From NCBI GenBank assembly GCA_016201695.1, contig JACQCK010000026.1, positions 1-43,794 on the forward strand: DNA of 43,794 bases, given 5' to 3'. Positions within the stretch are counted from its first letter, which is position 1; the number at the start of each line of letters is the position of its first letter. The notes under the pieces were generated by a model, which ran no database searches, was not told the DNA's origin, and worked only from the letters and a program-made list of their open reading frames with translations. The position numbers and the translations under genes were made by a program. Origin of the DNA: Candidatus Roizmanbacteria bacterium. GTDB taxonomy: Bacteria > Patescibacteriota > Microgenomatia > UBA1406 > GWC2-37-13. Shown here in pieces: positions 15,732 to 43,755 of this stretch.

Positions 15732-15741
15732 GTTAACGATA

Positions 15742-15747
15742 ATTATA
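15742..15747 (-). promoter_or_regulatory. -10 box TATAAT for the LCP gene
   Basis: Minus-strand TATAAT, 10 nt before ATG 15731. Confidence 0.55.
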
Positions 15748-15835
15748 TCGGTAAGATTCTTGTTTTTGATGCCGATCTTACTAAGGATCTTCTTTTTATT
15801 TCTGATCAAAATATTTGAAAAGTAATAATTAAAAA

Positions 15836-23827: not shown

Positions 23828-24955
23828 ATGAAAAAAATTATCATCCCCTTATTAATAATACTGGGAGTAATGGGCGCTTATTATTGGGTTACAGTCAGGC
23901 CCAGCGATTCCTCTGTTTTGCGCTCGCCGGTGGTTCTGCCGAAAGTAACCGTTTCCGTCAAGCCGACAGCGCCGCCGGCCAGTCAGTTGAACAAGGCTAT
24001 TTTTTTTCCCTCCTGGGCCGGGCTGGATAAAGCCGACCTGTCTTCTTATGACCGTGTTTACTACTTCTCCGCCACCGCCGATGAAAGTGGCATAAAAGAA
24101 ATATCTAAAGTTGAAAAGGAACTGCAGTCAGTCGCCTTTCTTTTTCCGCAAAAGGAAAAGTATCTGACGCTGAAGATGACCGACTCCGAAAGCAATTTCT
24201 CCGTCCTAAAAAACCCGGCGATCGAGGAAAAAATAAGACGGGAAGCGATTAGATTACTAAAAAACTATAGGTTTAAAGGTGTGCTCATAGACCTGGAATT
24301 ATTCAGTATATTTAACGATGATATAAAGACCCAAATTAGTGACTTCGTTTACAATTTTTATACAGAGGCAAAAAAGGAAAATCTACAGACTTTAGTCGTA
24401 CTTTACGGCGATGTTTTTTTTAGAAAACGGCCGTATGATGTCAAGTATCTTGGCGACAATTCTGACGGAATTCTCGTCATGGCCTATGACTTTCACAAAG
24501 CAAACGGCGAGCCAGGCCCGAATTTCGGATTGTCAGGAAAAGGCATTTGGGGATATGACTTCAAAACAATGATTGCTGATTATCGGGCAGTGGTCCCGGT
24601 TGAGAAGCTGACGGTATTATTTGGCATGTACGGTTATGACTGGTCGGTCGATGAAAAGAGACGGCCGATTAGGCCGGCGAAAGCCTTAAGTCTCAAAGAA
24701 ATTAAAAGCCGGTTCATCGAAAAATGTGAATGGAAAAATTGTTTATCCCGTCGGGACGACGCTTCGGCAGAGACGGAAATAGAGTACGTCAAAGACTATT
24801 TCGATCCGAATCCGGTAACCAATCCGGATAAACTCGTCAGTCTGGACTATCACATCATCTGGTTTGAAGACGAACAGTCGGTCGCCAAAAAAGTTGAGTA
24901 CCTTCGCGGGCAGGGGATTTCGCAGATAGGCTACTGGGTTTACGGCTATTTTTAA
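23828..24955 (+). CDS. Membrane-anchored GH18-like glycoside hydrolase
   Basis: A 375-residue protein with an N-terminal TM/signal anchor (3-20), a Pro/Ser-rich spacer to about 50, and a (beta/alpha)8 GH18-type domain resembling the YaaH/YdhD spore-wall glycosidases. The catalytic region reads FKGVLIDLELF. The final D-x-E of the GH18 DxxDxDxE motif is kept but the earlier aspartates are not. VMAYDFH and LFGMYGYDW are the usual downstream substrate-binding blocks. It could hydrolyse or only bind a beta-1,4 aminosugar polymer. Its TAA stop shares the TTAA at 24952-24955 with the convergent gene. Confidence 0.8.
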   Translation: MKKIIIPLLIILGVMGAYYWVTVRPSDSSVLRSPVVLPKVTVSVKPTAPPASQLNKAIFFPSWAGLDKADLSSYDRVYYFSATADESGIKEISKVEKELQSVAFLFPQKEKYLTLKMTDSESNFSVLKNPAIEEKIRREAIRLLKNYRFKGVLIDLELFSIFNDDIKTQISDFVYNFYTEAKKENLQTLVVLYGDVFFRKRPYDVKYLGDNSDGILVMAYDFHKANGEPGPNFGLSGKGIWGYDFKTMIADYRAVVPVEKLTVLFGMYGYDWSVDEKRRPIRPAKALSLKEIKSRFIEKCEWKNCLSRRDDASAETEIEYVKDYFDPNPVTNPDKLVSLDYHIIWFEDEQSVAKKVEYLRGQGISQIGYWVYGYF

Positions 24956-25230: not shown

Positions 25231-26364
25231 TTATGAAATAATTTGTTTAAACAAAGCCAGATATTCGGCGGCTTTATTATCCCACGATAAAGTGGTTCCG
25301 AGAGCAATCGTTTTTTGCTGTTGGGCCAGGTAATAATTGCGGTCGGTGGCCAGTTTTAATATCTCCTTGCCGATCGCCCGACTATCGCGGTAGGGGACAA
25401 AGACACCAACGTTTTTCAACAGTTCCACCGCAAATGGGTAAGGAGTAGTGATAATCGGGATGCCGGCTGCGATAGAAAAAGCCAGGACGCCGCTTGAGGT
25501 TTGGTTGGTGCTTAAATATGGCGTCAAGATAATGTCCGAAGCGACAATATAGCGGAATAAATCGATTTGAAAAAAATATTTTTGGATAAACTCTACCGTA
25601 TCGTCTAATTTTAGCGTACTTATCTTTTCTTTAATCATCTCGACGTAAGGCAGGTCTTTAGCGCCAAGAGGCGTGCCGATAACGAGGACCTTAAGATTGT
25701 TTAATTTATTTTTGATTTCAGCGGCTGCGTCAAGTAAGTATTCAATGCCTTTTTGTTTGTTCAGTAACCCGAACATGATTAAAGTAAAAAAACCGGTCAG
25801 GCCGAGGGCCTTTTTTAAGGCCGGTGCTTCAGCAAGAGGCGGAAGACGGGGGGCGCCATGGATGATAACCTTAACTCTGTCGGGCGTGATTCCCAGAGCG
25901 ATCAGTCCGTCTTTACCTACCTGTGACATGGTAATAAAATAAGCGGTTTTTTTAGCCAGCCTAAGCAGATGGTCTTTGTGAAAGTTGAATGATGGATAGT
26001 TAGGGTCAACGGGCACGGAGTGAACGACAACAACAATCGGTACTTTAATCGAATCAACGAAATCAAATAGATACTCTTTGTTTTCGCCGCCGAACAAGCC
26101 AAATTCGTGCTGGATGACGCAGATGTCGGCCCCGTCTTGATTAATAAGTTGCGCCGTTTTCGAGTATGAATCTTTATCCTGATAAAAAAAATGATCAACA
26201 ACGATCGCCTGATCGTAGGCATAGCCGTCCGGAATATCATCGATGGCATAGACCTGAGCTTCAAGCGTACTATCTATTTTTTTGAGGCTGGCAATAAGGT
26301 CAAAACAGAACTGGCCGACGCCGCAGCTTTTGGGCGGAAAACTTGAAAGAAATGAGAGTTTCAT
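25231..26364 (-). CDS. GT4-family glycosyltransferase
   Basis: A 377-residue GT-B fold enzyme transferring a sugar from a nucleotide donor in surface glycan synthesis. The N-terminal half has SFPPKSCGVGQFCFDL and HEFGLFGG. The donor half has IMFGLLNKQKGIEYLLDAA (about 208-226). In place of the EX7E motif it has SSGVLAFSIAAGIPIITT, a known GT4 variant without the first Glu. It starts within the stop of the next upstream gene (4-nt overlap, 26361-26364), so the two are translationally coupled. Donor and acceptor are unknown. Confidence 0.9.
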   Translation of the reverse strand: MKLSFLSSFPPKSCGVGQFCFDLIASLKKIDSTLEAQVYAIDDIPDGYAYDQAIVVDHFFYQDKDSYSKTAQLINQDGADICVIQHEFGLFGGENKEYLFDFVDSIKVPIVVVVHSVPVDPNYPSFNFHKDHLLRLAKKTAYFITMSQVGKDGLIALGITPDRVKVIIHGAPRLPPLAEAPALKKALGLTGFFTLIMFGLLNKQKGIEYLLDAAAEIKNKLNNLKVLVIGTPLGAKDLPYVEMIKEKISTLKLDDTVEFIQKYFFQIDLFRYIVASDIILTPYLSTNQTSSGVLAFSIAAGIPIITTPYPFAVELLKNVGVFVPYRDSRAIGKEILKLATDRNYYLAQQQKTIALGTTLSWDNKAAEYLALFKQIIS

Positions 26365-27509
26365 ATTAAATTCTCAAATACTTTTTGATAAACTTTAGCG
26401 GTTTCGGCAAAGGTGTGTGTTTTATTGTATTCCTGTATGTTGGCAACGTAGGCAGTTATTTCTTCTTTGTGGTTAAAAAAAACCCGGATTGTGTCGGCCA
26501 GATCTTGCGGATTGTGCGTTTTGGCCACGAGCCCCATACTCTTGTCAACCAAATCTTTTTCGGCAAAAACATCGGTGATAATCATCGGTTTTTCAAAGGC
26601 AAAGGCCAGATTTAATATGCCGCTTTGCGAAACATCAGTATAGGGGAGAACAACCAAATCGGCCGCCTGAAATTGGGTTTCAATATCTTTTGAGTGAATG
26701 TAGTCTTTTATGAAAATTTTGACACTGTTTCGCAGACCAAACCGATCAATAAGCGCCTGATATTGGTCGAAGTCGGACGCCTCTTTTATCGATACGGCAA
26801 CGGTTAAATGAAAGTTATCGTTTTGTTGGATTAGTATTTTTAGCGCTTTCAGCAAATCTGCGAGGCCTTTATTATCCCTTAAGGCGCCGAAGAATAACAG
26901 GCGGTTTTTATCGGGGGGTATTTGCAAAATCTGAAGAGCAGTGGTTTGGGATAGGCGGTGAGAGTTAAAAAGATCGTAAATCCCGTGGGTGGCAACGGCA
27001 GTATCGTTTTGAAAATGAAAATAGTCGGCCAGATTCTGTCTTTCTTTGTCGTTGCCGACGATGGCCGCGTCGGCTAGATTATAAAAATAGGTAAGATAAG
27101 GCGTGATTATTTCTTTTTCGGGGAACGGCAGGACGTCGTGCATGGTGTAGACGATCCGTAGAGCCTGTTTTTTAAAGTACTCGATGAGCGGTATAAAAAG
27201 AAAAGACGTGTATCTGACATAGGTACTGATATGCAAGTTGAAAACGTCAAATTTTTCCCGGGCAAATAAATCGAATAGATTATTGGCACTGCGATAGCTT
27301 GCGGCCCAACCGTGCGGGTTGATAAGCTGCCGATATTTTTTGACGTTTTGGGTAATAATCTCGTCGTTGACGGTCAACGGTTCACCGGTTGAGGCGTGGG
27401 TATAACTGACGACGGTCAGGTCAAATTGCGAAGCGAGATGGGGATAAAGATGGGCGATATAATGACCGACGCCAAATTTGAGAAATCCTACCTGACACAC
27501 CTTCTTCAT
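26361..27509 (-). CDS. GT4-family glycosyltransferase
   Basis: A 382-residue GT-B fold glycosyltransferase. YTMHDVLPFPEKE is the acceptor-domain block, FFGALRDNKGLADLLKAL (about 208-225) the donor-domain start, and QSGILNLAFAFEKPMIITD the variant of the EX7E region, like its coupled partner downstream. Start ATG 27509 lies 6 nt after a TATAAT that includes the stop codon of the upstream gene. The two GT4 genes and the 91-aa gene form one likely transcript. Confidence 0.9.
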   Translation of the reverse strand: MKKVCQVGFLKFGVGHYIAHLYPHLASQFDLTVVSYTHASTGEPLTVNDEIITQNVKKYRQLINPHGWAASYRSANNLFDLFAREKFDVFNLHISTYVRYTSFLFIPLIEYFKKQALRIVYTMHDVLPFPEKEIITPYLTYFYNLADAAIVGNDKERQNLADYFHFQNDTAVATHGIYDLFNSHRLSQTTALQILQIPPDKNRLLFFGALRDNKGLADLLKALKILIQQNDNFHLTVAVSIKEASDFDQYQALIDRFGLRNSVKIFIKDYIHSKDIETQFQAADLVVLPYTDVSQSGILNLAFAFEKPMIITDVFAEKDLVDKSMGLVAKTHNPQDLADTIRVFFNHKEEITAYVANIQEYNKTHTFAETAKVYQKVFENLI

Positions 27510-27515
27510 ATCTCT

Positions 27516-27521
27516 ATTATA
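27516..27521 (-). promoter_or_regulatory. -10 box TATAAT overlapping a stop codon
   Basis: Minus-strand TATAAT contains the TAA (27519-27517) of the HIT-like gene and lies 6 nt before ATG 27509. Confidence 0.6.
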
Positions 27522-28725
27522 TAGATTTAGGAATCAGATCTCCTTGGCAATAATCAGTCAGCCAGCGATTAATTTTGCCCGCGCCGATTGCGGATGCGGC
27601 CCGGTCAATCTGTTCGGCGGTAAGCGGTTTTATCCTGTCCCATTGAGAAATAATCTCTTCGTACTTCTGCGCTTCTTCGGCATCGCCGATTTTTAACGCA
27701 GCGTCTCTTTTTTCTACGGCTTCAGGACGGGAGAAGGCCGGTAGATTAACTTGCGAAGCTTCCGGCGGAAAGTAGCCATGAATATGCATATTGGTGCCAA
27801 AATCGTTTTTTTCGCGATCAGCTGCGGCTTTTTCTGAAAGCCGAGCATGTCTCCTTTTTTCGGCTTTTCTTTGCGGCGAATATTCTCCGGGGTTACTACT
27901 CGATGAGCGAAGATAATCAAGCGAGAGCGCGCCGCCTTGATCTTCTATTTGAAGACCCTTGGCCCAGTTACCGCTGTTGTGGATTTCTCCGGGTGCGGTG
28001 ATAACGTTAGCTTGCATAAGTAAGTTTTCGATTGCCATGACGACGGCGGTCGCTTCTGTCGTGGCCAGAATATATTTTTGGACCATTGTCTGATTGGCAA
28101 TTTCGCCGGGACTTTCCATTACTGTCTGCCACTGCCGTTGGAAAAAATTCTTGAGCTCTCCAATTGGACTGACCATGAAGTGATATCCGGTAAGGTGACC
28201 CTGTTTCCATAAAGCTACCTCGTATTTATCGTTTGTCCACAGCCGCAGTCCGTTGTCTTCGATTTCCGTTTTTTCGTCTTTACCGTTGACTCCTTTTACA
28301 AAAAGAGCCATATGTTTTGTTAATTTTTCCCATTGAGGAATATACAGATCGAACAGTCTTTTTAATTTATTTCTATCATAATAACGATCAATCGGTTCAT
28401 TTGGGCCGCCTGGAGAATCTTCTAAATGAGGAACCGGTTGCCTCCATGAGTTTTTCTCGTCCGGGACTCTGCCTATCGCCCAGATGTCGCCCCGCTGATC
28501 GCGGCGGGTATTGGCCCACACGTCTCTGGTATAACCGCTTTCGGCAATAGCTTTGGCAGTACCTAGTGCGGTAACAATTTTTCTTAAGGTTGCTTTAGGA
28601 GTGGCAGGAGACTTATCTTTTTCCGTTATTTTAATATTGAGACCATGTTGAAGCGGTTGTTGACCGGCGACTTTCAGTTCTTGGCCAGTATTATTGTGGA
28701 GAATGATTTCTGACGATTCTGACAT
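27517..28725 (-). CDS. Divergent HIT-superfamily-like protein (402 aa)
   Basis: I suggest a distant relative of the HIT/GalT fold. YHFMVSPIGELKNFF (181-195) resembles the strand and helix before the HIT core, HNSGNWAKG (249-257) the conserved N-x-G strand, and NMHIHGYFP (312-320) the His-x-His strand. The third His of the triad is Tyr here (HIHGY). A roughly 50-residue charged insertion (Ser-rich, then RKAEKRRHARL) separates the two strands. The N-terminal 120 residues (DVWANTRRDQRGDIWAIGRVPD) are unrecognised. Ap4A phosphorylase-like or nucleotide-sugar activity is possible. It sits between GT4 genes with its own -10. Confidence 0.5.
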   Translation of the reverse strand: MSESSEIILHNNTGQELKVAGQQPLQHGLNIKITEKDKSPATPKATLRKIVTALGTAKAIAESGYTRDVWANTRRDQRGDIWAIGRVPDEKNSWRQPVPHLEDSPGGPNEPIDRYYDRNKLKRLFDLYIPQWEKLTKHMALFVKGVNGKDEKTEIEDNGLRLWTNDKYEVALWKQGHLTGYHFMVSPIGELKNFFQRQWQTVMESPGEIANQTMVQKYILATTEATAVVMAIENLLMQANVITAPGEIHNSGNWAKGLQIEDQGGALSLDYLRSSSSNPGEYSPQRKAEKRRHARLSEKAAADREKNDFGTNMHIHGYFPPEASQVNLPAFSRPEAVEKRDAALKIGDAEEAQKYEEIISQWDRIKPLTAEQIDRAASAIGAGKINRWLTDYCQGDLIPKSI

Positions 28726-28734
28726 ACTGCCTTC

Positions 28735-28740
28735 ATTTTA
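28735..28740 (-). promoter_or_regulatory. -10 box TAAAAT beginning at a stop codon
   Basis: The TAA stop of the upstream GT4 gene (28740-28738) is the first half of this hexamer, 9 nt before ATG 28725. Confidence 0.5.
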
Positions 28741-29916
28741 CTTTATGAGAGCGAATTTCTCGTAGATATTTTCAAAGCGGTGGGCGATGATTTCCCAAGA
28801 AAATTTGGAGACGGCGATTTCGCGGGCCATTTTGGCCATTTTTTTCCTGGTCTCATCGTCGGTCAACAGCATATTTATTTTTTCGGCAATGTCTTTGGAG
28901 TTTCGCGGCCGGATAAAGAGCCCGTTTTTTCCCTCTTTGACCGCCAAAGGAATGCCGCCTTTTCTCGTGACGACGACCGGCGTCTCACAGGCCATCGACT
29001 CCAAGATCACGAGTCCCAAGGGTTCGTCCCAGACGCTTGGCGCAACAAAGACTTGGGCGCGGCTGTAGAACTTGACCAGGAAGTCGGTGTCGATACCGAG
29101 GTAGCCTAAAAATTTGACGTTGGTGATTTTTTCTTCTTTGACGATTTTTTCAAGATTTTTCCGCTCCGAACCGTCACCGAGGATAAAGACCTCGCCTTTG
29201 ATTTTTGGGGCGGCCCGAACAAGATACTTAACTCCCTTATACGGGGTGAGTTTACCGGCAAAAACGACCAGTTTTTTACCGGCAATATCAAACTGTTTGT
29301 CAATGTCGTCGGTATTGACTTTATGAAATTTTTTGATATCGACGCCGCCGGGAATCGTCCGGATCTGCTTACGATATTCGTCACCAAAGACTTTGAGCAT
29401 CCAGTCTTTGGTATAAAAAGAGTTCGGGATAATGCGCCGCGCCCGCCGGAGAGCATCGGTCGTCAGGGCGATATAACGGCGGTCTTTCTGGGCGGTTGGG
29501 AGTTCAGAGCCATGGACGGTGATAATATATGGAATTTGATAAGTTGATTTGATAAATCGGGCGGCCCAGGAGAACGGGAAGGCGTGATGAACGTGAATAA
29601 TATTCGGCTTGAAGTCTTCGACCGCCTCAACGGCGTGATTTAAAAAACATTTATAAATGGTCAGAATTTCGCGGTGGGAAATATCTTTGTAGAGCCGGCA
29701 GTTTTTCCACTCGGGGTGGCCGGTAAAGGCGACATTGAAAGGAAGTTTAATCGGGTAGATTTTGACTCCGTTGACCGGCCGAGTGTCCGGACAGACAATT
29801 CCAACGTGATGATGCTTATTTACTTCACGGGCTAAATAACGGGCGTATGTTCCCGAGCCGGAACCGTAGAGGGGAAAGGTCAGGAAATAGAGAATTCGCA
29901 GTCGCTTATCAGCCAT
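28738..29916 (-). CDS. GT4-family glycosyltransferase with canonical EX7E
   Basis: A 392-residue GT-B glycosyltransferase. FPLYGSGSGTYARYLA is the Gly-rich acceptor loop near the N-terminus, followed by HVHHAFPFSW and TVHGSELP. IPGGVDIKKF (about 187-196) leads into the donor domain. FAGKLTPYKGVKYLV binds donor phosphates. DEPLGLVILESMACETPVV carries the complete EX7E pair, unlike the two other GT4 enzymes here. Start ATG 29916 lies 9 nt after TACAAT. Likely a surface polysaccharide or glycolipid mannosyl/glucosyl-type transferase, with unknown substrate. Confidence 0.92.
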   Translation of the reverse strand: MADKRLRILYFLTFPLYGSGSGTYARYLAREVNKHHHVGIVCPDTRPVNGVKIYPIKLPFNVAFTGHPEWKNCRLYKDISHREILTIYKCFLNHAVEAVEDFKPNIIHVHHAFPFSWAARFIKSTYQIPYIITVHGSELPTAQKDRRYIALTTDALRRARRIIPNSFYTKDWMLKVFGDEYRKQIRTIPGGVDIKKFHKVNTDDIDKQFDIAGKKLVVFAGKLTPYKGVKYLVRAAPKIKGEVFILGDGSERKNLEKIVKEEKITNVKFLGYLGIDTDFLVKFYSRAQVFVAPSVWDEPLGLVILESMACETPVVVTRKGGIPLAVKEGKNGLFIRPRNSKDIAEKINMLLTDDETRKKMAKMAREIAVSKFSWEIIAHRFENIYEKFALIK

Positions 29917-32256: not shown

Positions 32257-34257
32257 ATGCCAGATCCGATCGCCCCCCAGGATGTCAGGGCCGAGATCAA
32301 ACCGATCAGCCCGCCGGTAAAAACCAGCGTTCCGCCAAAACCAAATTATTCCCGGGCCGACTTTATCGGGTCCAAAGTGCCGGGTACCGCCCGGGATAAT
32401 CTCGTCCGGGTGGCGGCGGCGCAGAGCGCCGATCGCCCTGAAACACATATTAGGACTAGTCACTCCGTTGCCGAACTGCAAGCGCTGCGTGATGAAACGA
32501 GGGTCGGGAGAGAAGCATATGGCGAAGGTCTGGTCAACCGGTTTCATAAAAAAACCATGACCGTTCCCGAACATGAACAAGCGCAGGAGCAGGCTTACGC
32601 CGCTTTATCGGAAAAAATAGACAGAGGCGTCGTGTCGCCCGCCTCCATCGGAGCGGACGTCTTACATAAGCTGGGGGTGACGGCGGAATTGGGGACTGTT
32701 CCAACGACCCAAGAGGGAGTGGTGGCGACGGTGACGGCCGAAGTCAGAGCGCTGGTTGACAGGGGACATATCACTCCCGAGGAAGCCGGTGATATAACGG
32801 GCGAGATGGCCAAGTTTGTTAAAGCATATCAGGCCGCCTACCCCGACAAAGATATCGCGACCGTTTTTGAGCTAACCCGTGACAACGCCCGTAAACTCGC
32901 CTATCAGATCAAGATGGATAAAAATATGTTTTCCGGATCCGACCATGGCAACCTGCATCTTTTGCGGGGCAATGTTCGCTTTGCCGAACAGATGATTGCC
33001 GACTTAAAAAAACTTGGCCTTGCCGTTTCGGCAAAAGACGAGGTTTTGATCAGGCAAAATATGTATGACCACGACTTAGGCTACGCGCAAGGCGCCGCTC
33101 AATCAAAAGAAGCCTTCGACGCGATGAAGGATCACCCGCTTTTGAGTGCAAAGTTTATCGAAGAGAATAAGGCCTATTACGTTGCCAAATTCGGTGAGGC
33201 AGAGTATGATGCGTTGAGGTATGTCGTTCTCAATCACAGTTATCCGACATCGGAGTACGATAACGGGCTGCGAAACAGTGCCGGCATTAATACCAAACTG
33301 ATCCGCTCAATTACCTCAACCGTTGATTCTTTGGGAGTGACCGCCGAGACGAAAGTGCCTGATTTTTTTCGAAAGCGGGAAACGGTAAAGTCGCTTATGA
33401 AGATAAGGTTGGCGATGGAAGTTAGGGGTACCGATGACGGTAAGGGAAATAAGGTCCTGCCTGCCGAGCTTATGGATAAATACAAAGAGGAGCTTCGCGC
33501 GATTGCCCGTTCGTCAGGCGAAAGCGAAGAGCGTGTCCGCGGCTACCTCACTTCAATTGATAACTTTATGAATGAAATGACGGTTGACCTGACGCTTGGT
33601 CAGTTTGCCGGCGTTGTTAAGGAGGTCGGGGCGGTCAAAAACAAGGACGGAAAAGTTGTCCCCCGTATTACCATGCAACTGTCTGATGTCCAAGCGCTGC
33701 TTGGCAATATGTTCGGCGGCAAGGTCGAAACGCAGGCGTTTGTCAAAGTGATGTCGGACTTCGGCATGGACGAGTTTACTCTGCAACGGTTGGTGCAGTA
33801 TGTGGGCTGGCGCTCGTGTGGCGTTATTCCGGCTACTACTGACGACGATTTGGTATTCAATTCGCCGGAGGCGCATTTTACCATCAACGATCATATTGCC
33901 GGCGACGGCCCGCAGGAAGAGTTCGGCGAGTTACGCGGGGTGATGAAGGGCGTTGCGGCGCTGTCTGCCCGAAGCGAAATAAACGAGCTCCTGCGTTATT
34001 TCGGCGAAGGGATTTCCGCTGAAAAAAGGTATATGATCCCACGGATTATCGGCGCCTTTATCGGTCGTATAAACGACAAAACGAGCCCCGCGGAGGTAAA
34101 AGAACTGGGTGAACTCGCGGATATGTTGGCGTATGACGGGCCAACGGACATGACGGATGAGGGCGGTTTTGGCATGACCCGGGCCCAGTATGCCAATAAA
34201 AGACTGCAAAGCTATCTGACCCAAAATGAACGCGATTTTTTGGGAATTAGCGAATAA
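32257..34257 (+). CDS. Large HD-domain phosphohydrolase-like protein
   Basis: A 666-residue soluble protein. Residues about 225-340 carry an HD-superfamily metal site: a leading His (SDHGNLH, His230/His234), the HD pair His272-Asp273 (YDHDLGY), His293 (DHPLLSAKFI) and His327 (VLNHSYPTSEYD), in the HD/HD-GYP order. Such enzymes hydrolyse nucleotides or cyclic dinucleotides. No GYP signature is present. The flanks (1-220 and 340-666) are helical and unrecognised. Two helix-turn segments, DRGVVSPASIGADVL and DRGHITPEEAGDIT, look like a short internal repeat. Four small forward genes follow closely or overlap, suggesting one operon. Confidence 0.7.
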   Translation: MPDPIAPQDVRAEIKPISPPVKTSVPPKPNYSRADFIGSKVPGTARDNLVRVAAAQSADRPETHIRTSHSVAELQALRDETRVGREAYGEGLVNRFHKKTMTVPEHEQAQEQAYAALSEKIDRGVVSPASIGADVLHKLGVTAELGTVPTTQEGVVATVTAEVRALVDRGHITPEEAGDITGEMAKFVKAYQAAYPDKDIATVFELTRDNARKLAYQIKMDKNMFSGSDHGNLHLLRGNVRFAEQMIADLKKLGLAVSAKDEVLIRQNMYDHDLGYAQGAAQSKEAFDAMKDHPLLSAKFIEENKAYYVAKFGEAEYDALRYVVLNHSYPTSEYDNGLRNSAGINTKLIRSITSTVDSLGVTAETKVPDFFRKRETVKSLMKIRLAMEVRGTDDGKGNKVLPAELMDKYKEELRAIARSSGESEERVRGYLTSIDNFMNEMTVDLTLGQFAGVVKEVGAVKNKDGKVVPRITMQLSDVQALLGNMFGGKVETQAFVKVMSDFGMDEFTLQRLVQYVGWRSCGVIPATTDDDLVFNSPEAHFTINDHIAGDGPQEEFGELRGVMKGVAALSARSEINELLRYFGEGISAEKRYMIPRIIGAFIGRINDKTSPAEVKELGELADMLAYDGPTDMTDEGGFGMTRAQYANKRLQSYLTQNERDFLGISE

Positions 34258-34261
34258 AAAT

Positions 34262-34714
34262 ATGAGTCAAGAAGTAAACGAGCAAAAGATAGTAAATGAT
34301 TTCTTCAACGCCTATATGGCGGTGTTGACGCAAAAAATCGGCCGGACGCTTGACGCCGTTGAGGCGGCCGCAGTTTCTTACGTCATTGCCCGGACCTGGA
34401 GCGGACAGCCGGCGAGTGAAGCCGAAAAAGTTCTTGGCGAACAGATCGGTCTTGTCCCGACCGACGGACCGCTTGATATCCAGTGGAAAATGCATACAGT
34501 CATCAATAGGGAAACGGAAAAAAATATTGAGACCGGTCTGGCGACGACATCAGGTCAGCCGGCCGAGTTACTGAAAATTACGGCAGAAATATTAAGTAGA
34601 AATCACGCGAGGACACAGGCGGTTTACGAGCAGGCGAAGCGGGGAAATAAGCCGGTGCCGATTTTTCTTGGAGCGGTGCCCGACCTTCTGAAGTTGCATC
34701 GGCCGGCTGTTTGA
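34262..34714 (+). CDS. Unrecognised small protein (150 aa)
   Basis: Starts at ATG 34262, four bases after the HD gene stop. An in-frame ATG at 34226 inside the HD gene is less likely. The product is helical and soluble (EQKIVNDFFNAYMAVLTQKIGRTLDAVEAAAVSYVIAR), with no metal motif. Close coupling to the HD gene suggests shared expression. Function unknown. Confidence 0.6.
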   Translation: MSQEVNEQKIVNDFFNAYMAVLTQKIGRTLDAVEAAAVSYVIARTWSGQPASEAEKVLGEQIGLVPTDGPLDIQWKMHTVINRETEKNIETGLATTSGQPAELLKITAEILSRNHARTQAVYEQAKRGNKPVPIFLGAVPDLLKLHRPAV

Positions 34715-34722
34715 TATACAGT
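34712..34722 (+). promoter_or_regulatory. Stop codon fused to an extended -10 (TGATATACA/TACAGT)
   Basis: The TGA stop of the 150-aa gene (34712-34714) precedes TATACA (34715-34720) and the overlapping TACAGT (34717-34722). ATG 34729 is 6-8 nt further on. Confidence 0.5.
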
Positions 34723-34728
34723 TGATGT

Positions 34729-35082
34729 ATGAATCCGCAAGCGGAAGAGTTTCGGAAATTTATCGAAACTCAAGTACTTGGGATAATCCAGCAACTGGCC
34801 GAAAAAGGTAATACGCCGCAGGAACAGATTCAGAAACTTGCCCAGCTGACAATTGACCTTATCAAGCCGGGGATGACGCTTGAGGAGCTCTTCCAAAACG
34901 CCGTCAAACTCGACGACCGGCACTCGGAACTGGCGCCGGTCGTTTATCAAGTGATGAAAGAGTACGAAAAGAAGTATGAGCAGAAGGCGGTGGCGCAGGT
35001 CTCGCAGCTTGTCAAGATGGGTCGTTATGACGATGCGGCGTCCGTTGTCAAAAAAGTACTACAATTTAAATTCGCCAACTGA
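34729..35082 (+). CDS. Unrecognised small helical protein (117 aa)
   Basis: An entirely helical, charged protein (EEFRKFIETQVLGIIQQLAEKGNTPQEQIQKLAQLTIDLIKPGMTLEEL, then a coiled-coil-like YQVMKEYEKKYEQKAVAQVSQLVKMGRYDDAA). The final GRYDDAASVVKKVLQF resembles one TPR-like helix pair. The stop is one base before the next ATG, so it is coupled to the following gene. Function unknown. Confidence 0.65.
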   Translation: MNPQAEEFRKFIETQVLGIIQQLAEKGNTPQEQIQKLAQLTIDLIKPGMTLEELFQNAVKLDDRHSELAPVVYQVMKEYEKKYEQKAVAQVSQLVKMGRYDDAASVVKKVLQFKFAN

Positions 35083-35083
35083 T

Positions 35084-36025
35084 ATGGTACCAGGCATAAG
35101 ACCGGGGGAAAGCGCGGGCGCCGGTATGGCGGCACAAAGACCTACCACTCCCGAACAACAAAGGCAACCGCCATCGTTGGCGGAAAGAGTTAAGGCAAAA
35201 TTTGCCGGGCCGAGCGAGGCGAGACTGGCCGAGCAGGGAAGACAGTCGCCCGCCCACGCCGCCGAGATCCTGACCTTATTCGCCGGAAAGCACGTCCAGA
35301 TGGTAGTTGCCGGTCGGCTAAACGAAATTCAAGACAGTGTACAAACGGGTAGATTAACCGAGAGCAAGGCGAAGTCACGTTCGAACGAAGAGAGAAAGCT
35401 ATATGTCCGCGCCCAGGGACTGGCGCAGCAAACCGATGAGAAAATTAGAGCGTTGAAAGGGAGCGATAATCAACAAGATAAAGAATTGGGCTATGATATG
35501 GATCGGGGATTTTTACGGATGCGGCAGGCAGAGATCCAGCAACAACTTCAAGAAATTACGCTTAGTTTAACAAACGATCCGGCTAATCAGGAGCTTTTGA
35601 AGAGCCAAAAGACTCTGAAGGAGATGTCACAAAAGGTGACAGGTGAAATTGCCGGATTGGACAAAGAGATGAGCGCCGCCGGCCTGGATCCGGCCGCCGA
35701 GGGGCCGGTAACCGCTCTTGCGGCGACAATCAAGGGAGGGACGCTCACTCCAGAAGAAAAGAAAAACCCGATGGCCGTCATTGAGTCGGCGATCGGCGGT
35801 TCACTCGGAAGCGCTAAAGCAATTAACGCAAAAACGAAGGAGCTGGTAAGTAAGGGGATTATTAGCGCCGCCGAAGCGGAGCAATTTAAGGAGAATGTTC
35901 TGATTGAGGGCCCGAGTACAACCGATAGAGTTTCCCGTTTTGGCCTAAATATAATGGGGTTGCTGGCCCTTTTTGCTTATATTGCCTCGCAACGGGATAA
36001 ACAACAAGCAATGGCTGGCCACTAG
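35084..36025 (+). CDS. Coiled-coil protein with a C-terminal membrane anchor (313 aa)
   Basis: ATG 35084 follows the previous TGA by one base. The frame extends upstream to 34976 only by overlapping the 117-aa gene. Residues 1-45 are Pro/Gln-rich and disordered. About 45-230 are charged helices with heptad-like patterns (AEIQQQLQEITLSL, LLKSQKTLKEMSQKVTGEIAGLDKEM). About 285-305 is a single TM (FGLNIMGLLALFAYIAS) with a short tail, as in tail-anchored proteins. ELVSKGIISAAEAEQF echoes the helix-turn repeats of the HD protein. It could tether the HD-operon products to the membrane, which is an inference. Its stop shares CTAG with the convergent PBP-like gene. Confidence 0.65.
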   Translation: MVPGIRPGESAGAGMAAQRPTTPEQQRQPPSLAERVKAKFAGPSEARLAEQGRQSPAHAAEILTLFAGKHVQMVVAGRLNEIQDSVQTGRLTESKAKSRSNEERKLYVRAQGLAQQTDEKIRALKGSDNQQDKELGYDMDRGFLRMRQAEIQQQLQEITLSLTNDPANQELLKSQKTLKEMSQKVTGEIAGLDKEMSAAGLDPAAEGPVTALAATIKGGTLTPEEKKNPMAVIESAIGGSLGSAKAINAKTKELVSKGIISAAEAEQFKENVLIEGPSTTDRVSRFGLNIMGLLALFAYIASQRDKQQAMAGH

Positions 36026-39000
36026 GTAAGCAAACGCAGCAGTTCTTCGGCGATGCGGCCGCTGGTTACCGGCGCGGTCGCCTCAAGAGTCGTTGTTCCT
36101 TCTGCTACTTCATTGCCGGTTGTGACATAAACCAGATACTCCCTGTTCCCGCCGATCGAACTGCTGCCGAACTGGCCGTTACGCAAGTTGCCGAAAGAAA
36201 GGAGGTCGTGTTTTAAGAAGTAGCTTCGGCCCGGAGTAGTCAGAGCCCGGCGAAGGGAGTCGGCGACGGCCGGATCCAGAACCGGGACAGACGGCGTTGA
36301 TGGAGAATTGTAGATATTTTGATTGCCATGGTTTTTGATATCATGGACGATTTTTATCGGGACTTTTTTTCCGCCGGTTACTAAGGCGCCGTAACTTTTT
36401 AAAATTTTAAGGGGAGTTGAGAGGGCGGAGGTACCAAGCGGTGTTTCCCACCCGGAGCGGTCGATGCGAAACCGGTCCGACAAGCCGAGCCGTTGCCAGA
36501 AGTCGCTGACGGTGATGAGGCCGAGGTCTCGCTGCAGCCTGGCGGTGGCGTTGACGGCCGACCTGGCAAAGGCTTTGGTAAACGGCACCGGCCCGTTCGC
36601 GTTGGCGCGGTCGCCGAAATTCTGTGGCCGCCAGCGATCGCCAAACGCCGTTGTCGTCAGGGTCAGCGTCGAGTTGTCGACGGTTTCGTCGGGATTGACG
36701 GTCCCTTTTTCCAAAGCGGCGGCGTAGGTCGGCAGTTCGGCTAAAAGAAAAGGAAAATGTTCGACTGTCGGCGTCCCGGTCAGGGCGACGATTTCACCGG
36801 TCTGCGGTTTTTTGATGCAGACCGAGACGTGATTGACGTGGTATTTTTGTTTGAGTTCCTGGCGATATTTATCAATGACGGCCTGGACTTTTCGTTGAAG
36901 GTCGATATCGAGAGTTGATCTTATCTGTAGGCCCTGTTTCATCAGTTCCGGGTCAAGGGTCAGTGCGTTTCTAAAAAAACGGAAGAAATCGGAGGTATTA
37001 TTAAGCGACTGAATATGAAGGATAATCCCTTTTTTCCAGATCGTCTCCGCATTGATGGACGGATCATGCTCGGCCATCAGGCGAAGAACGGTGAGCTGCC
37101 GTTGTCGGGCGGGGTGACTGTCGGCTAGTTTGATCTGGCCGGTTGGGGCTTCGTCTTTGGCGCCGGTCATGTACGGGTCGGTAAGCGGATTGTACTTGAC
37201 CGGATTTTGCGGCAGCCCGGCCAGGAAAGCGGCTTCCTCAAGAGTGAGATCCTTCAGGTTCTTATTGAAGTAAACCCGGCCGGCGGCTTTAAAACCCTCA
37301 ATATTGTTGCCGCAGGAGGCGATGTTGGCGTAGTTGGTAAGAATCAGTTCTTTGGCTTTACGCTTGCCGTACCTTGCTTCAAGGTAGGATTGATAGGCAG
37401 TCGACAGCGCCGTTTCCATAATTTTCCGGTTGAGGCCGGATAGTGAGCCTTCGTTATATTCTCCCGCGCGTTCGGCAAAAGAAAAACAGGTATTTTTGAT
37501 AAGCTGCTGGGTGATCGTTGAGCCGCCCTGTCTGCCGTCGCCGGCGGCCGTATTTTTAAAAGCCCGGGCCAGAGCGCTGACTTCAACGCCGGGATTTTCC
37601 CAGAAGGTTTTGTCTTCGGTCGCAACAACGGCATTTTGGAGATAGGCGGGAATTTCATCAAGCGCGGCAATGAGGTCGCGGCGCTCATCAAAAACCTCGC
37701 CAAGTAGGGTTACGCCGTCTGAAGCGTAAACTTTGGTAGTTTTCTGGATATTCGGCCGGTCGCGCTGTTCAAATGGCAGCAGTTTGGCAAAGCGGCCAAG
37801 GAAATTTTCCTGAAACTCGGAATAAGAGCGTTTACCGGCGAGCTCCCAGGCCAAATAAATCGGGGCGACGGCGCCAAATTTGACAAAAAATTGCAGAAAC
37901 TGACGCCGGGAAAGAGCCGGAGCCGTCGGTTGTTCGTTAAAAGTGAGGTGGGGATACTGTTTCCGTAACCGGGCGGCCGCGTCGGTCGGTTTTTTCCCAA
38001 ATAACAGTCCGGCCGCGCCGGTTAAACGAAAGTCATAAGTTTTTTGCTTGCTAAGCTCGGTCAGAAGCCACTCCAGGTCCTGGTCGTTGGCCGCCATGAG
38101 GGGAAGATCAATCGCGCCTCGCCGGTCCAGGTCACTCGCGACAGCGAGAAAACGGTCCGGATCGATTTCATATCTTTTTAAAAGCAGTCCGGTCACCGTG
38201 TCCAGTTTTTGCGGCGGATCCGCGCCGGCGGCAGGATTTGGTCGATGTTCTTCGTGACTGGCTTCACTCATCCGGTAATAGGCAATGGCCGTTTCATAAC
38301 CGTGCAGGGCTCTTCGCCGGATGGCGGCCGTTCTTTGCGGGTCATAGTCAAGCTCGATCTGTGCGTTTATCCGCCGTTTCGCGTAAGGCGGTACAAAAAC
38401 CAAAGGCAGGCGCGCAGTTTTTTCGCGCGCTTCGATATAGTCAAGCAGTTCGTTCACGATCTGGCGGTTGGTCAGAAGAACACCGTCGACCTGATGATCA
38501 AGCGCCTTATTTAAAGCGGAAATTTGAATGTTGGGATTGGGAAAATAGTCCTTGAGCAAGCCAAGTAAAACGGTGACGGCGGCATCAGTTTTTTGGCGTA
38601 CTTCATTTGCAAGCAACCGGTTGTTGTCTTTTTGGGACGGAAAAGTAATCAGGCCGTCATAATATACATCGGTCAGGCCATCGGTCAGCCGGTCCCGGTT
38701 TTCCTTGGAAGTAAGATAGTCTTTCAAATTCTGGGGCGGGCGTTCGGCCGGCCGCATTGAGTCCAACGGTTGGACTTCGGTCAGCCGGGTTAGGGGAGTC
38801 TCTTGCGGTTGCAAAGCGTCAAGATTGGGTTTGACCAGGTTGCCGTAAAGAGTTTCACCCATGTGTTCCAGGCCGCTGTCGCCAAGCTGCTGCAGTAGGT
38901 CAAGCGCCCGGTCCTGATTTTCTTTTTTACCGGCCGCTTCCTTGGCCGCCCAGGCGCCGGCGACAGCGGCGGCGCCGAAAACAAACTGGCGCCGGGTCAA

Positions 39001-39126
39001 AAAACGGGCCAGGCGAACGGCTTTTTCTTTAGGACGGGCGGCGGCAACCGTTTCGGCAAGTTTTTCTGAAAGCGGTTTCGGCGGCGTCGGCCGGTAGCGG
39101 ACAAGGTTATCAAAATTACGGTCCAT
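36022..39126 (-). CDS. Class A PBP-like protein: intact GT51 glycosyltransferase, degenerate transpeptidase
   Basis: A 1034-residue protein. Residues about 465-690 are a GT51 peptidoglycan glycosyltransferase, which polymerises lipid II: VVATEDKTFWENPGV with catalytic Glu504, GRQGGSTITQQLIKN (531-545), and EEAAFLAGLPQNP. Residues about 730-1034 are fold-related to the PBP transpeptidase, but the PGSxFKPF region reads FLLAELPTYAAALE, so the SxxK Ser and Lys are Leu and Glu. The KTG region reads NGQFGSSS (984-991). Residues 1-460 are an extension with two RR-plus-hydrophobic segments, TRRQFVFG (44-51) and SRRQFLQF (406-413), and an unrecognised 340-residue region between them. TATACT precedes ATG 39126 by 6 nt. 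Confidence 0.88.
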   Translation of the reverse strand: MDRNFDNLVRYRPTPPKPLSEKLAETVAAARPKEKAVRLARFLTRRQFVFGAAAVAGAWAAKEAAGKKENQDRALDLLQQLGDSGLEHMGETLYGNLVKPNLDALQPQETPLTRLTEVQPLDSMRPAERPPQNLKDYLTSKENRDRLTDGLTDVYYDGLITFPSQKDNNRLLANEVRQKTDAAVTVLLGLLKDYFPNPNIQISALNKALDHQVDGVLLTNRQIVNELLDYIEAREKTARLPLVFVPPYAKRRINAQIELDYDPQRTAAIRRRALHGYETAIAYYRMSEASHEEHRPNPAAGADPPQKLDTVTGLLLKRYEIDPDRFLAVASDLDRRGAIDLPLMAANDQDLEWLLTELSKQKTYDFRLTGAAGLLFGKKPTDAAARLRKQYPHLTFNEQPTAPALSRRQFLQFFVKFGAVAPIYLAWELAGKRSYSEFQENFLGRFAKLLPFEQRDRPNIQKTTKVYASDGVTLLGEVFDERRDLIAALDEIPAYLQNAVVATEDKTFWENPGVEVSALARAFKNTAAGDGRQGGSTITQQLIKNTCFSFAERAGEYNEGSLSGLNRKIMETALSTAYQSYLEARYGKRKAKELILTNYANIASCGNNIEGFKAAGRVYFNKNLKDLTLEEAAFLAGLPQNPVKYNPLTDPYMTGAKDEAPTGQIKLADSHPARQRQLTVLRLMAEHDPSINAETIWKKGIILHIQSLNNTSDFFRFFRNALTLDPELMKQGLQIRSTLDIDLQRKVQAVIDKYRQELKQKYHVNHVSVCIKKPQTGEIVALTGTPTVEHFPFLLAELPTYAAALEKGTVNPDETVDNSTLTLTTTAFGDRWRPQNFGDRANANGPVPFTKAFARSAVNATARLQRDLGLITVSDFWQRLGLSDRFRIDRSGWETPLGTSALSTPLKILKSYGALVTGGKKVPIKIVHDIKNHGNQNIYNSPSTPSVPVLDPAVADSLRRALTTPGRSYFLKHDLLSFGNLRNGQFGSSSIGGNREYLVYVTTGNEVAEGTTTLEATAPVTSGRIAEELLRLLT

Positions 39127-39147: not shown

Positions 39148-42100
39148 TTAGCTTAGACTTTCAGAGAGTAGGGCAAAAGCTCTTGTATATATCTCAAGTT
39201 TATCTGGACTAGTCTTTAATTCCAAAATAAATCCGTCGATACCGTCGGGGCCGGCATATGCCGCCATCATCGGCGTAAGAACGGCGATTTTTTCCTTCTT
39301 GACCGTCTCGTCAACCGAAGAGTTTTGGAAGTATCGGGTGAGAAACTTTTCCGCCTTATGATAGGTGGCCGTCTCTTTATTTCCCCGCGCAAACGGATTG
39401 GTCAGGCTGCGCTTGGCCGGTTGCGCCCGGTAGCCGTCTTGTTGTTTTAGATTGTCAAGATGAAGGAGTAAATTATGAAAAGCCTCGTTTATTAGAGAAA
39501 AAGGGAGTCGAGGATTGCTATAATCATTTCCGGCGAGCGGATCCAAAAATTCTTGCCACCAGGCTGATCTGAATTGGTCTGTGTCTTGTATTCCTAACTT
39601 ACTGGCAAGAAATGTTAAGGCCTCGTTCGATTGCCACTCTAAATCAAAGCCGGGAACTGGGTCGGCTTCGTGGGTATCGGGAGCGGTAGGTGATGCCGTT
39701 GTTACCGGCGGACTGATTCTTTCCGACAGGAAAGCGGCCCGAAGCTGTCGCTGTAGCTCCTGATTCAGCTCTTTATCTTCGGGGATGGTGAGAGTAGCTC
39801 GAGAGTCAATCAAGTCTCTCTCGATTTTTTTAAAAATGTTTCCAAAACTGTCAATAATTTGTTGTCGAGTCGGTGATGGTCTGTACTCCTCATCATATAG
39901 TTCCTGCGGGGTTGGTGGTTCAACGTTAGGATAAGCTTGTTGGAATTCTTGGCGGGCTTGTTCTGTTCTACGTATCCAAAAAATAATTTCTTTGACAAAA
40001 TGATCGGCTAGAATTTGTCTCACGGCGGTTTCCGGATCAGAGTTGTTTGATTCGGGTGGTTCAGAGTCGAATTGACTTTTAAATTCATCAGGCGATAATT
40101 GCATGGCACGTCTAACGTTACGATATGAATTTGAGCCTTGTTCAAATTGATAAAGCAACAGGGCCGGCGTTTGTCCGGCGGTTTTTAGGCTTTGAGGAAG
40201 ATTCCAGAACAACCAATCTTCGGCTTTTTTTTGGATTTCAGCGGCTTTTTGTTCTTTTGTTTTCGGTATCGCGTCTATTAGCCGTTTTTTTAATCGCTGC
40301 ATCCGTCCTTCAGACGGTTGGACAGGGGCGTTAACTGTCGCTGCCGTATTGGTTGCAGAAGTCGTTGTTTGTGGGTTGACTGATCCGCGTTGTTGTTCAA
40401 GGTAATCATCAAGCTTCTTCTGGTGTTTTGGTGTTAATTGTATGCCTTGATTGAGCAACTCCGCGAGAGCGATTGGAGTGAGATTACGATTGCTAAGACC
40501 GGCGTTGTAACTTTGCTGAAGGTTGATTGGTTGGGGGAGACGAGCGCCAACCGGAGCCGGGTTGACCGGAGCGGAATTATTCGGCAGTACCGTTGTGGGG
40601 TTTATGGGAGTCGTTGGTGGTGGTAATCTTTGTTTTTTCCGAGCGAGGTAGTCGTCAAGTTTTTGTCGGTCTTCCGGTGTCAGTTGCACACCGAGGTTTG
40701 ACATATGCTCCAACAGAGTGAGAGAAAAAAGCTTTTGAAGACTGGCATCATACATATTCTGATAGTTTGCCCGATCGGCGGCAAGAGCGTCAACCGGAGC
40801 GGGGTTGGCTGGAGCGGTTGTTGGGGGAGTTGTGGTGGAAGCGACGGGCGGGGTTTTTTTATCTAAAATACTTTGGTCGGTCAACTCGATTCTAAGTTTG
40901 CCGTTTTCAATATGAACTTTGACCTGGGTAAGGTTAATGCCCTTTCCGGCGAACTGTTTATTGAGGTGAGGCAAAATAAACTTATTAATGTCGAAGTTGG
41001 GATCAGCTAAAATCGCGTCTATTTTTCTTTGGGTATCCTCTAGTTCGCCATTAACCAAGGCGTTATCCGAACGAAGCGCGAAGTCAGTTACTTTTACTGA
41101 ATCGGCGCCATTATTGGCGAAGTCGGCAGCAAATCTGATATCTGTATCTACTACACCACCAGCAGCAGTAATATGAATACTACCGGTCAACGAACCGTTG
41201 TTTTTATTTAAAGTCGGTTCGACTGATCTAAGCGTAGCCTTATTTACTTTGGGGGGCGGGTGGTCGGCGAGATAAGGAGTAAGAAAGGCGGAAACTATGC
41301 TTTGTATAGACTGGGCATCAAGCTCACCGACAAACTGGCCTTTGGCGGCGATAGCGTTTTCTATCTGGCCGAGAATGGGTTGATTGACATCGATGGCGTC
41401 GACCGATGGCGGCCGGCCCGGAGACGGCCGATTAGGGCGGGTTGTTGGGGGAGTTGTGGTAGTAGGCGGGTTGGAGACGGGTTGCGGCCGGGCCGGCCGC
41501 TGGAGAAGCAGACGATTAAAATTGTCCAAAAGTTCTTCCTCGCTGTTTGGGCCTTGAGTCAACCGGTCCACCCGGGCGGCCTGACCGGCGCCCGGCGCCG
41601 TAAATAACTGCTTTACCTGATTTTTTCCGGTTGGAGTTTTTAGTTTATGCAAAACGTCAATTCCCTGGGCAATCATCTGTCCGGTGACTTCGGGCCCGTA
41701 GAGTTGTTTGGCCGTCCAGAGGACATTATTTAAAGTTTCCTGATCCTGAAGATTGAGGCCCGGGATAGACATGACAGTGTTGATGAAACGGACCGGATCA
41801 ATGGTCTGCCCCCGGTTATCCTGGACAAAAACAGAGTAAAGTTTGTTGGCGTCTTCGGCGTTAAATTGGTAGTTGGCGGGAAGGGGGCGGGCGAGATTGA
41901 GGGCATGGGTGGTAAATTGCCGCATAAAATCGGTCCGGGTGCCGCGGCTTGAGTTGGTAACAAAGTTGTCTGCCCAGACGGCAAAGTCGCTGTAAGAGCG
42001 GGGCGTATAAGTGCGGCCTTCGGTCTGCGCCTGTTGCTGCCGGCGGCTTTCCTCTTCCTGCCACTGGCGCTTGAGGCGGGTGCGGTTGTTGGCATAAAAA

Positions 42101-42345
42101 TTGTCACGTTCGGCCAAAGAAGCCTCGCCGAAAGCGGCGGTTGGCAGTTTGGGATGATTGGTCAGCTGGTCGATATGATTGGGAGGAAGCGGGGTCATTC
42201 TTTGATTCTTATCAAGCGGTTTTTCGCCGAGTCCCAGCTGGTTGACCGCGATGAGGCGGCCCTGGACCCCTTCAAGCGGCGAAAAAACAGCCGCTCCTTC
42301 TTTGGGTACGGTTGCCTCGACGACACCAGCTGCGGCTTCAGTCAT
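39148..42345 (-). CDS. Giant unrecognised multidomain protein (1065 aa)
   Basis: No family recognised, and no signal peptide or TM is visible. Order: a helical N-terminal region (1-280), a Pro/Thr linker (about 283-315), a beta-rich domain (about 318-495, SLTGSIHITAAGGVVDTDI, VKVHIENGKLRIEL), a Pro/Ala linker, a 45-residue unit twice (about 527-571 and 608-652), each with a QLTP turn followed by KLDDYL, separated by a Pro/Asn linker, then a basic stretch (MQRLKKRLIDAIPKTKEQKAAE) and a long helical C-terminal region. Such linker-separated modules suggest a scaffold. It lies 21 bp upstream of the PBP-like gene, with its own -10. Confidence 0.7.
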   Translation of the reverse strand: MTEAAAGVVEATVPKEGAAVFSPLEGVQGRLIAVNQLGLGEKPLDKNQRMTPLPPNHIDQLTNHPKLPTAAFGEASLAERDNFYANNRTRLKRQWQEEESRRQQQAQTEGRTYTPRSYSDFAVWADNFVTNSSRGTRTDFMRQFTTHALNLARPLPANYQFNAEDANKLYSVFVQDNRGQTIDPVRFINTVMSIPGLNLQDQETLNNVLWTAKQLYGPEVTGQMIAQGIDVLHKLKTPTGKNQVKQLFTAPGAGQAARVDRLTQGPNSEEELLDNFNRLLLQRPARPQPVSNPPTTTTPPTTRPNRPSPGRPPSVDAIDVNQPILGQIENAIAAKGQFVGELDAQSIQSIVSAFLTPYLADHPPPKVNKATLRSVEPTLNKNNGSLTGSIHITAAGGVVDTDIRFAADFANNGADSVKVTDFALRSDNALVNGELEDTQRKIDAILADPNFDINKFILPHLNKQFAGKGINLTQVKVHIENGKLRIELTDQSILDKKTPPVASTTTPPTTAPANPAPVDALAADRANYQNMYDASLQKLFSLTLLEHMSNLGVQLTPEDRQKLDDYLARKKQRLPPPTTPINPTTVLPNNSAPVNPAPVGARLPQPINLQQSYNAGLSNRNLTPIALAELLNQGIQLTPKHQKKLDDYLEQQRGSVNPQTTTSATNTAATVNAPVQPSEGRMQRLKKRLIDAIPKTKEQKAAEIQKKAEDWLFWNLPQSLKTAGQTPALLLYQFEQGSNSYRNVRRAMQLSPDEFKSQFDSEPPESNNSDPETAVRQILADHFVKEIIFWIRRTEQARQEFQQAYPNVEPPTPQELYDEEYRPSPTRQQIIDSFGNIFKKIERDLIDSRATLTIPEDKELNQELQRQLRAAFLSERISPPVTTASPTAPDTHEADPVPGFDLEWQSNEALTFLASKLGIQDTDQFRSAWWQEFLDPLAGNDYSNPRLPFSLINEAFHNLLLHLDNLKQQDGYRAQPAKRSLTNPFARGNKETATYHKAEKFLTRYFQNSSVDETVKKEKIAVLTPMMAAYAGPDGIDGFILELKTSPDKLEIYTRAFALLSESLS

Positions 42346-42351
42346 ATTTTT

Positions 42352-43755
42352 TTATTCTAACACATTAGCGGTTTTAACGTTATCGTCGTTTGTCCTTGCT
42401 TCATCCAAACAGGTAAGATAGGTGCAAAGGGCCCAGAGTTGGTTGGCCGGCATCTTGGCGTAATCAAGCTCTCGATATGAGGTCAGTTGTCGGGCGAGAT
42501 TTTTAAGATGTAGATCAAACGTCAGTTGATCAGTACTGTCGGGTTTCACCAGTATTTCTTCGTTGACCAACCGGCGGTAGACGGTTGACAGTCTGGGAAC
42601 AAAAAATTTGGCCGGCGGGCGTGAGCGATTGTTAATAAACCCGATAAGTTCATACAAAGCCGTTAATGTTACTCCGTCTCCGAAAGGAGGCGAAAAAGCC
42701 AGAATCCGTTCGGCGACTAACGATCGCAGCCGCCGGGTTTGTTCTTCAGTAAGCGGTAAGCGGGTAAAAAGTTCGTGAGGGGCAGTGACGTTTAGAATCG
42801 TCTCGCGCACAAGCGGAGCCAGCGGGGTTTGGGGAACGGTCAGCGTGTCGTCACCGACGCCTTCGACGATATCAAAGGCAGACAGGAGGTCAAAATCAGC
42901 CGGCAGCGGCTCGTCAGCCGATAGTCCGTAAGCTGTCTTTATCTTGTCAACGACAGCCGGCCGCTGCGCTTTGATGGTCCCGGCGATAGCTTCACGGCAG
43001 GCGGCAAACGCTTGAGTTGCTGCCGGGGTGGCCGGGTGCGGGATAAGGCCGTTGGCAAAAAGCAGGGCGTCGACCCGGGTGATACCCAGTCCGCTTTCCC
43101 GCGCCGGTTGAGTCAGGCCAAGAAGCAGCAGTTCGCCCATCGGCCCGAGTTTTTCTATCACTGTCCGTTCGTTGAGCCAGGCGGACGGTTGGGGAGCGGG
43201 TAGCGCCGTTGTGACTTCGGCAGAACGAGTCGTAAGGTTGCCGGGAAAATCAGATTGTTTTTCCTGATAAAAGGCGGCGCCCTGCTTTTTGAGCCAGTCC
43301 GCGACTCGTTTGACAACCAGTTCGACCGCAGTCTGCGGTAGGTCGTCCGCGTCTGCTTCGCCGATTCGCTCGACGACGTCTAAGGCTTTACACCAGTCAA
43401 AATCGTCCGGCACGCGGCCGCCGTTGGCGGCTTGTACCTGTCTCACAATGTCGGGCCTTTCTTCTTGGATGATGGTATTGATGGTTGACCGCGCCAGTTG
43501 AAAACTTTCCCACAGTGACGGGTCGCCGGGCATGGGGAGAAGCCCTGCTTGAACAAGAAAGGCGTCGACCCGGGTGATCACCCGATTGTCAGGCGAGATA
43601 CCGGTCAGAAGAAGCTTGCCTAGCGGCCCCATGTCGCTGATTGATTTTTTTCGCCGTTCCCACGCCCACGGTTCCCGGCGGTTAATAAGCGGCAAAATGT
43701 CGCTAACGGACAACGAGTCGGCGATACCTAGAGAGTCGGGATTTTCGTTTGACAT
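42352..43755 (-). CDS. Unrecognised protein with a tandem duplicated about 110-residue module (467 aa)
   Basis: Residues about 41-149 and 202-319 are clearly related copies. Both run MGPLGKLLLTG / LGPMGELLLLG, then ITRVDAFL / ITRVDALL, GLLPMP / GLIPHP, a helix ending in ERPDIVRQV / QRPAVVDKI, PDDFDWCKALDVVERIG / PADFDLLSAFDIVEGVG, and LPQTAVELVVKR / VPQTPLAPLVRE. The C-terminal about 140 residues are helical and unrelated. There is no TM or signal peptide. It is first of three closely spaced minus-strand genes. No clear -10 is seen before ATG 43755. Function unknown. Confidence 0.7.
   Translation of the reverse strand: MSNENPDSLGIADSLSVSDILPLINRREPWAWERRKKSISDMGPLGKLLLTGISPDNRVITRVDAFLVQAGLLPMPGDPSLWESFQLARSTINTIIQEERPDIVRQVQAANGGRVPDDFDWCKALDVVERIGEADADDLPQTAVELVVKRVADWLKKQGAAFYQEKQSDFPGNLTTRSAEVTTALPAPQPSAWLNERTVIEKLGPMGELLLLGLTQPARESGLGITRVDALLFANGLIPHPATPAATQAFAACREAIAGTIKAQRPAVVDKIKTAYGLSADEPLPADFDLLSAFDIVEGVGDDTLTVPQTPLAPLVRETILNVTAPHELFTRLPLTEEQTRRLRSLVAERILAFSPPFGDGVTLTALYELIGFINNRSRPPAKFFVPRLSTVYRRLVNEEILVKPDSTDQLTFDLHLKNLARQLTSYRELDYAKMPANQLWALCTYLTCLDEARTNDDNVKTANVLE
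42354..42359 (-). promoter_or_regulatory. -10 box TAGAAT overlapping a stop codon
   Basis: The last T of TAGAAT (42354) is the first base of the upstream TAA stop (42354-42352). ATG 42345 is 8 nt away. Confidence 0.5.

Follow-up and report, generated by a model that had tools for sequence, protein, structure and literature searches.

An intact-looking glycosyltransferase domain joined to a putative pseudo-transpeptidase in a natural class A PBP of Candidatus Roizmanbacteria

The protein of 1034 residues that Candidatus Roizmanbacteria encodes at positions 36022-39126 of the window (the whole 43,794-nucleotide stretch of DNA analyzed here) is very probably descended from a class A PBP and would now work as a lipid II polymerase only, with a pseudo-transpeptidase as its C-terminal domain. 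A sequence-only reading had proposed a live glycosyltransferase (GT) joined to a dead transpeptidase (TP), and this proposal is supported by the motif analysis, by a fold search, and by live homologues of the same architecture in two relatives, G015 and G030. The GT51 domain is predicted to polymerize lipid II into glycan strands. The C-terminal domain would keep the TP fold, and formation of an acyl-enzyme would be impossible because the nucleophilic serine and the lysine of SxxK, the asparagine of SxN, and KTG are gone. Such a domain is predicted neither to cross-link nor to bind beta-lactams covalently, and cross-links would be supplied by other enzymes. That the GT domain is active and the TP domain inactive is inferred here, and the pseudo-domain may have a scaffold or regulatory role.

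The gene is an open reading frame on the reverse strand with an ATG start and no internal stops, and the codon usage of every part of it falls inside the range of the other genes of the window. Its features are the following.

36022-39126, reverse strand: class A PBP-like protein with GT51, a putative pseudo-transpeptidase, and a long N-terminal region (Pfam, codon usage)
37912-39126, reverse strand: N-terminal region, residues 1-405, fold unassigned (clear similarity in G015, weaker in G030)
38935-38997, reverse strand: first twin-arginine and weakly hydrophobic segment (TRRQFVFGAAAVAGAWAAKEA), residues 44-64 (hydropathy below 1.2)
37834-37911, reverse strand: second twin-arginine and hydrophobic segment, directly before GT51 (SRRQFLQFFVKFGAVAPIYLAWELAG), residues 406-431 (sequence, hydropathy)
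37171-37698, reverse strand: GT51 glycosyltransferase domain, about residues 477-652 (PF00912, 147-151 bits)
37615-37617, reverse strand: codon of the catalytic Glu504 (motif I, TEDKTF, residues 503-508; by motif position)
36025-36834, reverse strand: putative pseudo-transpeptidase domain, residues 765-1034 (Pfam, profile alignment, structure model)
36736-36747, reverse strand: LLAE (residues 794-797) replacing SxxK (gapless alignment to live homologues)
36553-36561, reverse strand: SAV (residues 856-858) replacing SxN (alignment)
36151-36234, reverse strand: stretch expected to carry the KTG strand, residues 965-992, without KTG (insecure alignment, low model confidence)

The N-terminal region gave a structure model with a pLDDT of only 45. 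The segment directly before GT51 is likely the membrane anchor, and two membrane passes in this protein would place GT51 on the wrong side. Both twin-arginine segments are also found in G015, and in G030 the first is less clear. Despite the two RRxF segments, no TatC match was found in the source genome, G015, or G030, drafts that may be incomplete, and this speaks against Tat export. The neighboring genes (32257-36025 and 39148-43755) encode large proteins, and Pfam gave no match over cut-off for 32257-36025, 39148-42345, or 42352-43755. The contig also carries genes for envelope glycans (14604-15809, 23828-24955, and 25231-29916), with products that include a LytR-CpsA-Psr protein, a protein of family GH18, and group 1 glycosyltransferases encoded in a row.

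The GT51 domain has the features expected of a class A PBP. It matches the Pfam Transgly profile over residues 477-652 (147 bits), and the retention of Glu504 and GGSTITQQL, noted in the sequence-only reading, is confirmed, with the latter at residues 534-542. The RKxxE motif is also present (R567, K568, and E571, of which Glu571 is catalytic). Of the 22 GT columns that are invariant among 29 live-motif class A PBPs (alignment A2), 21 are kept, and the sole change is E579Q. This change speaks against a working polymerase, as does the replacement of the motif I histidine by asparagine (H511N), although the live homologue of G015 has the asparagine too. The domain is intact looking and is probably an active polymerase.

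The TP domain turned out to be very different, as 8 of its 15 invariant columns are lost, against the single one of the GT domain. The Pfam Transpeptidase profile (PF00905) is matched at residues 799-963 with 43.5 bits (cut-off, 22.1), and the match covers profile positions 49-216 alone, so that it begins just past SxxK and ends before KTG. The replacement of PGSxFKPF by FLLAELP was seen correctly from the letters. FPFLLAELP occupies residues 791-799, and in a gapless alignment of HFPFLLAELPTYAAALEKG from this protein with HPPGSSVKPATYAKALELG from G015 and NFPGSTVKPFTYARALAED from G030, the serine of SxxK falls on L794 and the lysine on E797 (L794-L-A-E797). No SxxK is present anywhere past residue 651, so the motif was not relocated within the domain and the finding that would have spoken most directly against a dead domain was not made. 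Nor do other reading frames hide an SxxK, and stops interrupt two of the three stretches read, which rules out a frameshift or compensating shifts. The blocks YAAALEKG, WRPQNF, and SAVNATARLQRDLG, which had been listed as survivors, are all there, but the last of them contains the second lost motif, as the SxN position reads S856-A-V858, with the serine kept and the asparagine changed to valine. The third motif is absent as well, since no K[TS]G[TS] was found and residues 652-1034 contain no KTG. The equation of the KTG region with NGQFGSSS (residues 983-990) is less secure, because this stretch cannot be aligned. The alignment to the profile of live TP domains ends at about residue 963, and NGQFGSSS is one candidate of several; the candidate triplets for the KTG place are SFG (977-979), RNG (982-984), and QFG (985-987), none of which is KTG. 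Judged by its motifs, the TP domain looks dead. The protein has none of the three TP motifs of a class A PBP, and a TP-fold domain persists in it, which is not the case in monofunctional GT51 enzymes of the MtgA type.

The structure prediction that had been suggested as a check gave the expected answer. AlphaFold2 was run on residues 448-1034 with 30 sequences in the alignment (pLDDT, 76.5; pTM, 0.66), and the model fell below a pLDDT of 50 in the stretch after about residue 963, which includes the KTG region. A Foldseek search of the PDB with this model retrieved class A PBPs, namely Staphylococcus aureus PBP2 (E value of 1.7e-23), Escherichia coli PBP1b, and Acinetobacter baumannii PBP1a, with E values of about 1e-22 to 1e-23 for the first two. 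Because of these matches, and together with the PF00905 match, the C-terminal domain of the model is assigned the class A PBP fold, with a TP fold C-terminal to GT51. The global TM-scores were modest (0.43-0.51), and therefore the model is used at the level of domains and not of residues. The closest family is PBP1A (PF00912 plus PF00905, TIGR02074), with which the protein shares the domain order, the fold, the GT51 motifs, and the overall TP blocks. It differs from this family in the loss of SxxK, SxN, and KTG and in the approximately 450 residues that precede GT51, and its best NCBIfam match, PBP_1a_fam, reaches 213 bits, far under the family cut-off of 509.

Long class A PBPs with a similar N-terminal region are present in G030 (1450 residues) and G015 (977 residues), which belong to two genera of the same family. 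They share with the protein the long N-terminal region and the two twin-arginine hydrophobic segments, and the G015 protein also has the short segment before SxxK. In contrast to the protein of the window, they are live by motif (PGSTVKP/PGSSVKP and KSGT/KTGT). G030 is syntenic with the window over a GalP/Ap4A-type transferase (67% identity), a zinc-ribbon protein, and the convergent PBP gene, and also over a tail-anchored coiled-coil-like protein whose similarity is marginal. A neighboring open reading frame of 349 codons ends in a hydrophobic anchor, and so does its G030 equivalent. In the tree the three long PBPs are grouped with 100/99 support, but all three branches are very long, and the grouping therefore leans on the N-terminal region and the synteny. 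The N-terminal region had no further matches in the samples of the family, order, and class beyond G015 and G030. When genome contigs were searched with the TP domain, no close relative sharing the motif loss was found, and there was none in viral contigs; a query with the whole protein retrieved distant PBPs alone, matched across the GT and TP parts. Among the 91 distinct class A genes of the source genome and 56 relatives, this is the only one without SxxK, and in one of the 91 the KTG is masked by a run of N. The comparison of homologues, which had been suggested to see whether the loss is conserved, showed that it is not. As those of G015 and G030 keep SxxK and KTG/KSG, the motif loss is, by sequence, specific to this lineage within the sample and was seen in one genome. 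The live homologues and the 91-gene sample fit the proposal that the TP domain was inherited and then lost its catalytic serine and lysine.

The other class A PBPs of the genome are also of interest, as both readable TP domains carry in-frame deletions. The C29 protein (L049, 12730-15195) is an ordinary class A PBP whose TP domain is without 34 profile positions just past the SxN helix. This deletion takes out the conserved LGGGEVT block and is unseen in relatives. The C44 protein (L047, 17251-18234, at the contig end) has SxxK and SxN intact, and the 10 positions gone are exactly the KTG strand; judged from relatives, the deletion is of 30 bp, in frame, and flanked by a 4-bp repeat. A k-mer assembler would not easily create a false junction at so short a repeat. 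Internal TP gaps in the relatives surveyed are at most 1 position, except in the two long homologues (13 and 10 positions), and no comparable gaps occur in the GT domains of the genome, the TP domain of the C48 class B PBP, or ten housekeeping proteins. Each recoverable class A PBP, including that of the window (C37), combines an intact-looking GT51 domain with a TP domain damaged by motif loss or deletion. It is possible that the organism abandoned class A transpeptidation and that its class A PBPs (C37, C29, and C44) are glycan polymerases only, with all cross-linking left to class B PBPs. We hold this genome-wide reading tentatively and consider it the less probable one, because the genome is a draft in which contig ends cut several PBP genes and the C-terminal half of one is absent, and because a guaA-like gene on C44 (L047, 3517 to about 5090) has two apparent frameshifts, which may be real decay or draft error. 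In addition, the ends of C10 and C46 (L045 and L046) carry different GT51 genes that share an exact 141-bp end, as is typical of k-mer assembly where a repeat is common to both paralogues.

These deletions and the guaA frameshifts would also fit a gene that is in early decay as a whole, with GT function going too; the TP lesions would then simply be the earliest signs of damage to a paralogue that is redundant. The very long branch and E579Q point in the same direction. We consider this unlikely, as all 1034 codons are open with ordinary codon usage and the losses are so unevenly divided between the GT and TP columns. Moreover, the branches of the live homologues of G015 and G030 are also very long, and fast evolution is therefore a property of the subfamily. 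It is very improbable that the TP domain still performs acyl transfer with a rearranged nucleophile; the fold signal and S856 are kept, but the domain has no SxxK to offer, the lysine has become glutamate, the SxN asparagine has become valine, and KTG is missing. An assembly or sequencing artifact, for which the 57 contigs, the end-cut PBP genes, the 141-bp overlap, and the guaA frameshifts could be cited, is hardly credible at all, as the lesions are substitutions and leave the alignment without gaps, no other frame brings the motifs back, and the gene is internal to a contig of 43.8 kb and syntenic with G030.

If the protein is a polymerase with a pseudo-transpeptidase, another enzyme would be needed for cross-linking, as the sequence-only reading had pointed out, and the inventory of the genome (a 0.985-Mb draft in 57 contigs, estimated to be 96% complete) fits this. 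Besides the class A PBPs, there are two class B PBPs, of which that on C48 is complete and live by motif and that on C22 is truncated by a contig end, and two SEDS genes. No match to the YkuD L,D-transpeptidase profile (PF03734) was found in the draft, which argues against an L,D-transpeptidase as the substitute cross-linker. Cross-linking would most simply be left to the class B PBPs and the SEDS proteins that partner them. There is a functional model for such a division of labor. The TP-inactivated S510A variant of E. coli PBP1b polymerizes lipid II, and growth is supported if a separate transpeptidase cross-links (PMC5089857; also PMC8135044). However, that variant is an engineered point mutant, whereas here the loss is natural and extends over three motifs. 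The predicted job, lipid II polymerization without transpeptidation, is also that of the monofunctional glycosyltransferases MtgA and SgtB, although these have no TP-fold domain and the present protein retains one.

Targeted literature searches, which left subscription journals mostly outside their coverage, found no natural class A PBP with a TP domain that is retained but catalytically erased. Going by its motifs, the protein described here is a natural class A PBP with such a putative pseudo-transpeptidase. If this is real, polymerization has been parted from cross-linking by evolution and not by mutagenesis, a class A PBP insensitive to beta-lactams is predicted, and the question arises of how a noncatalytic TP fold serves the GT domain. 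In its genome-wide form, the reading would put to the test whether class B PBPs alone can cross-link a cell wall.
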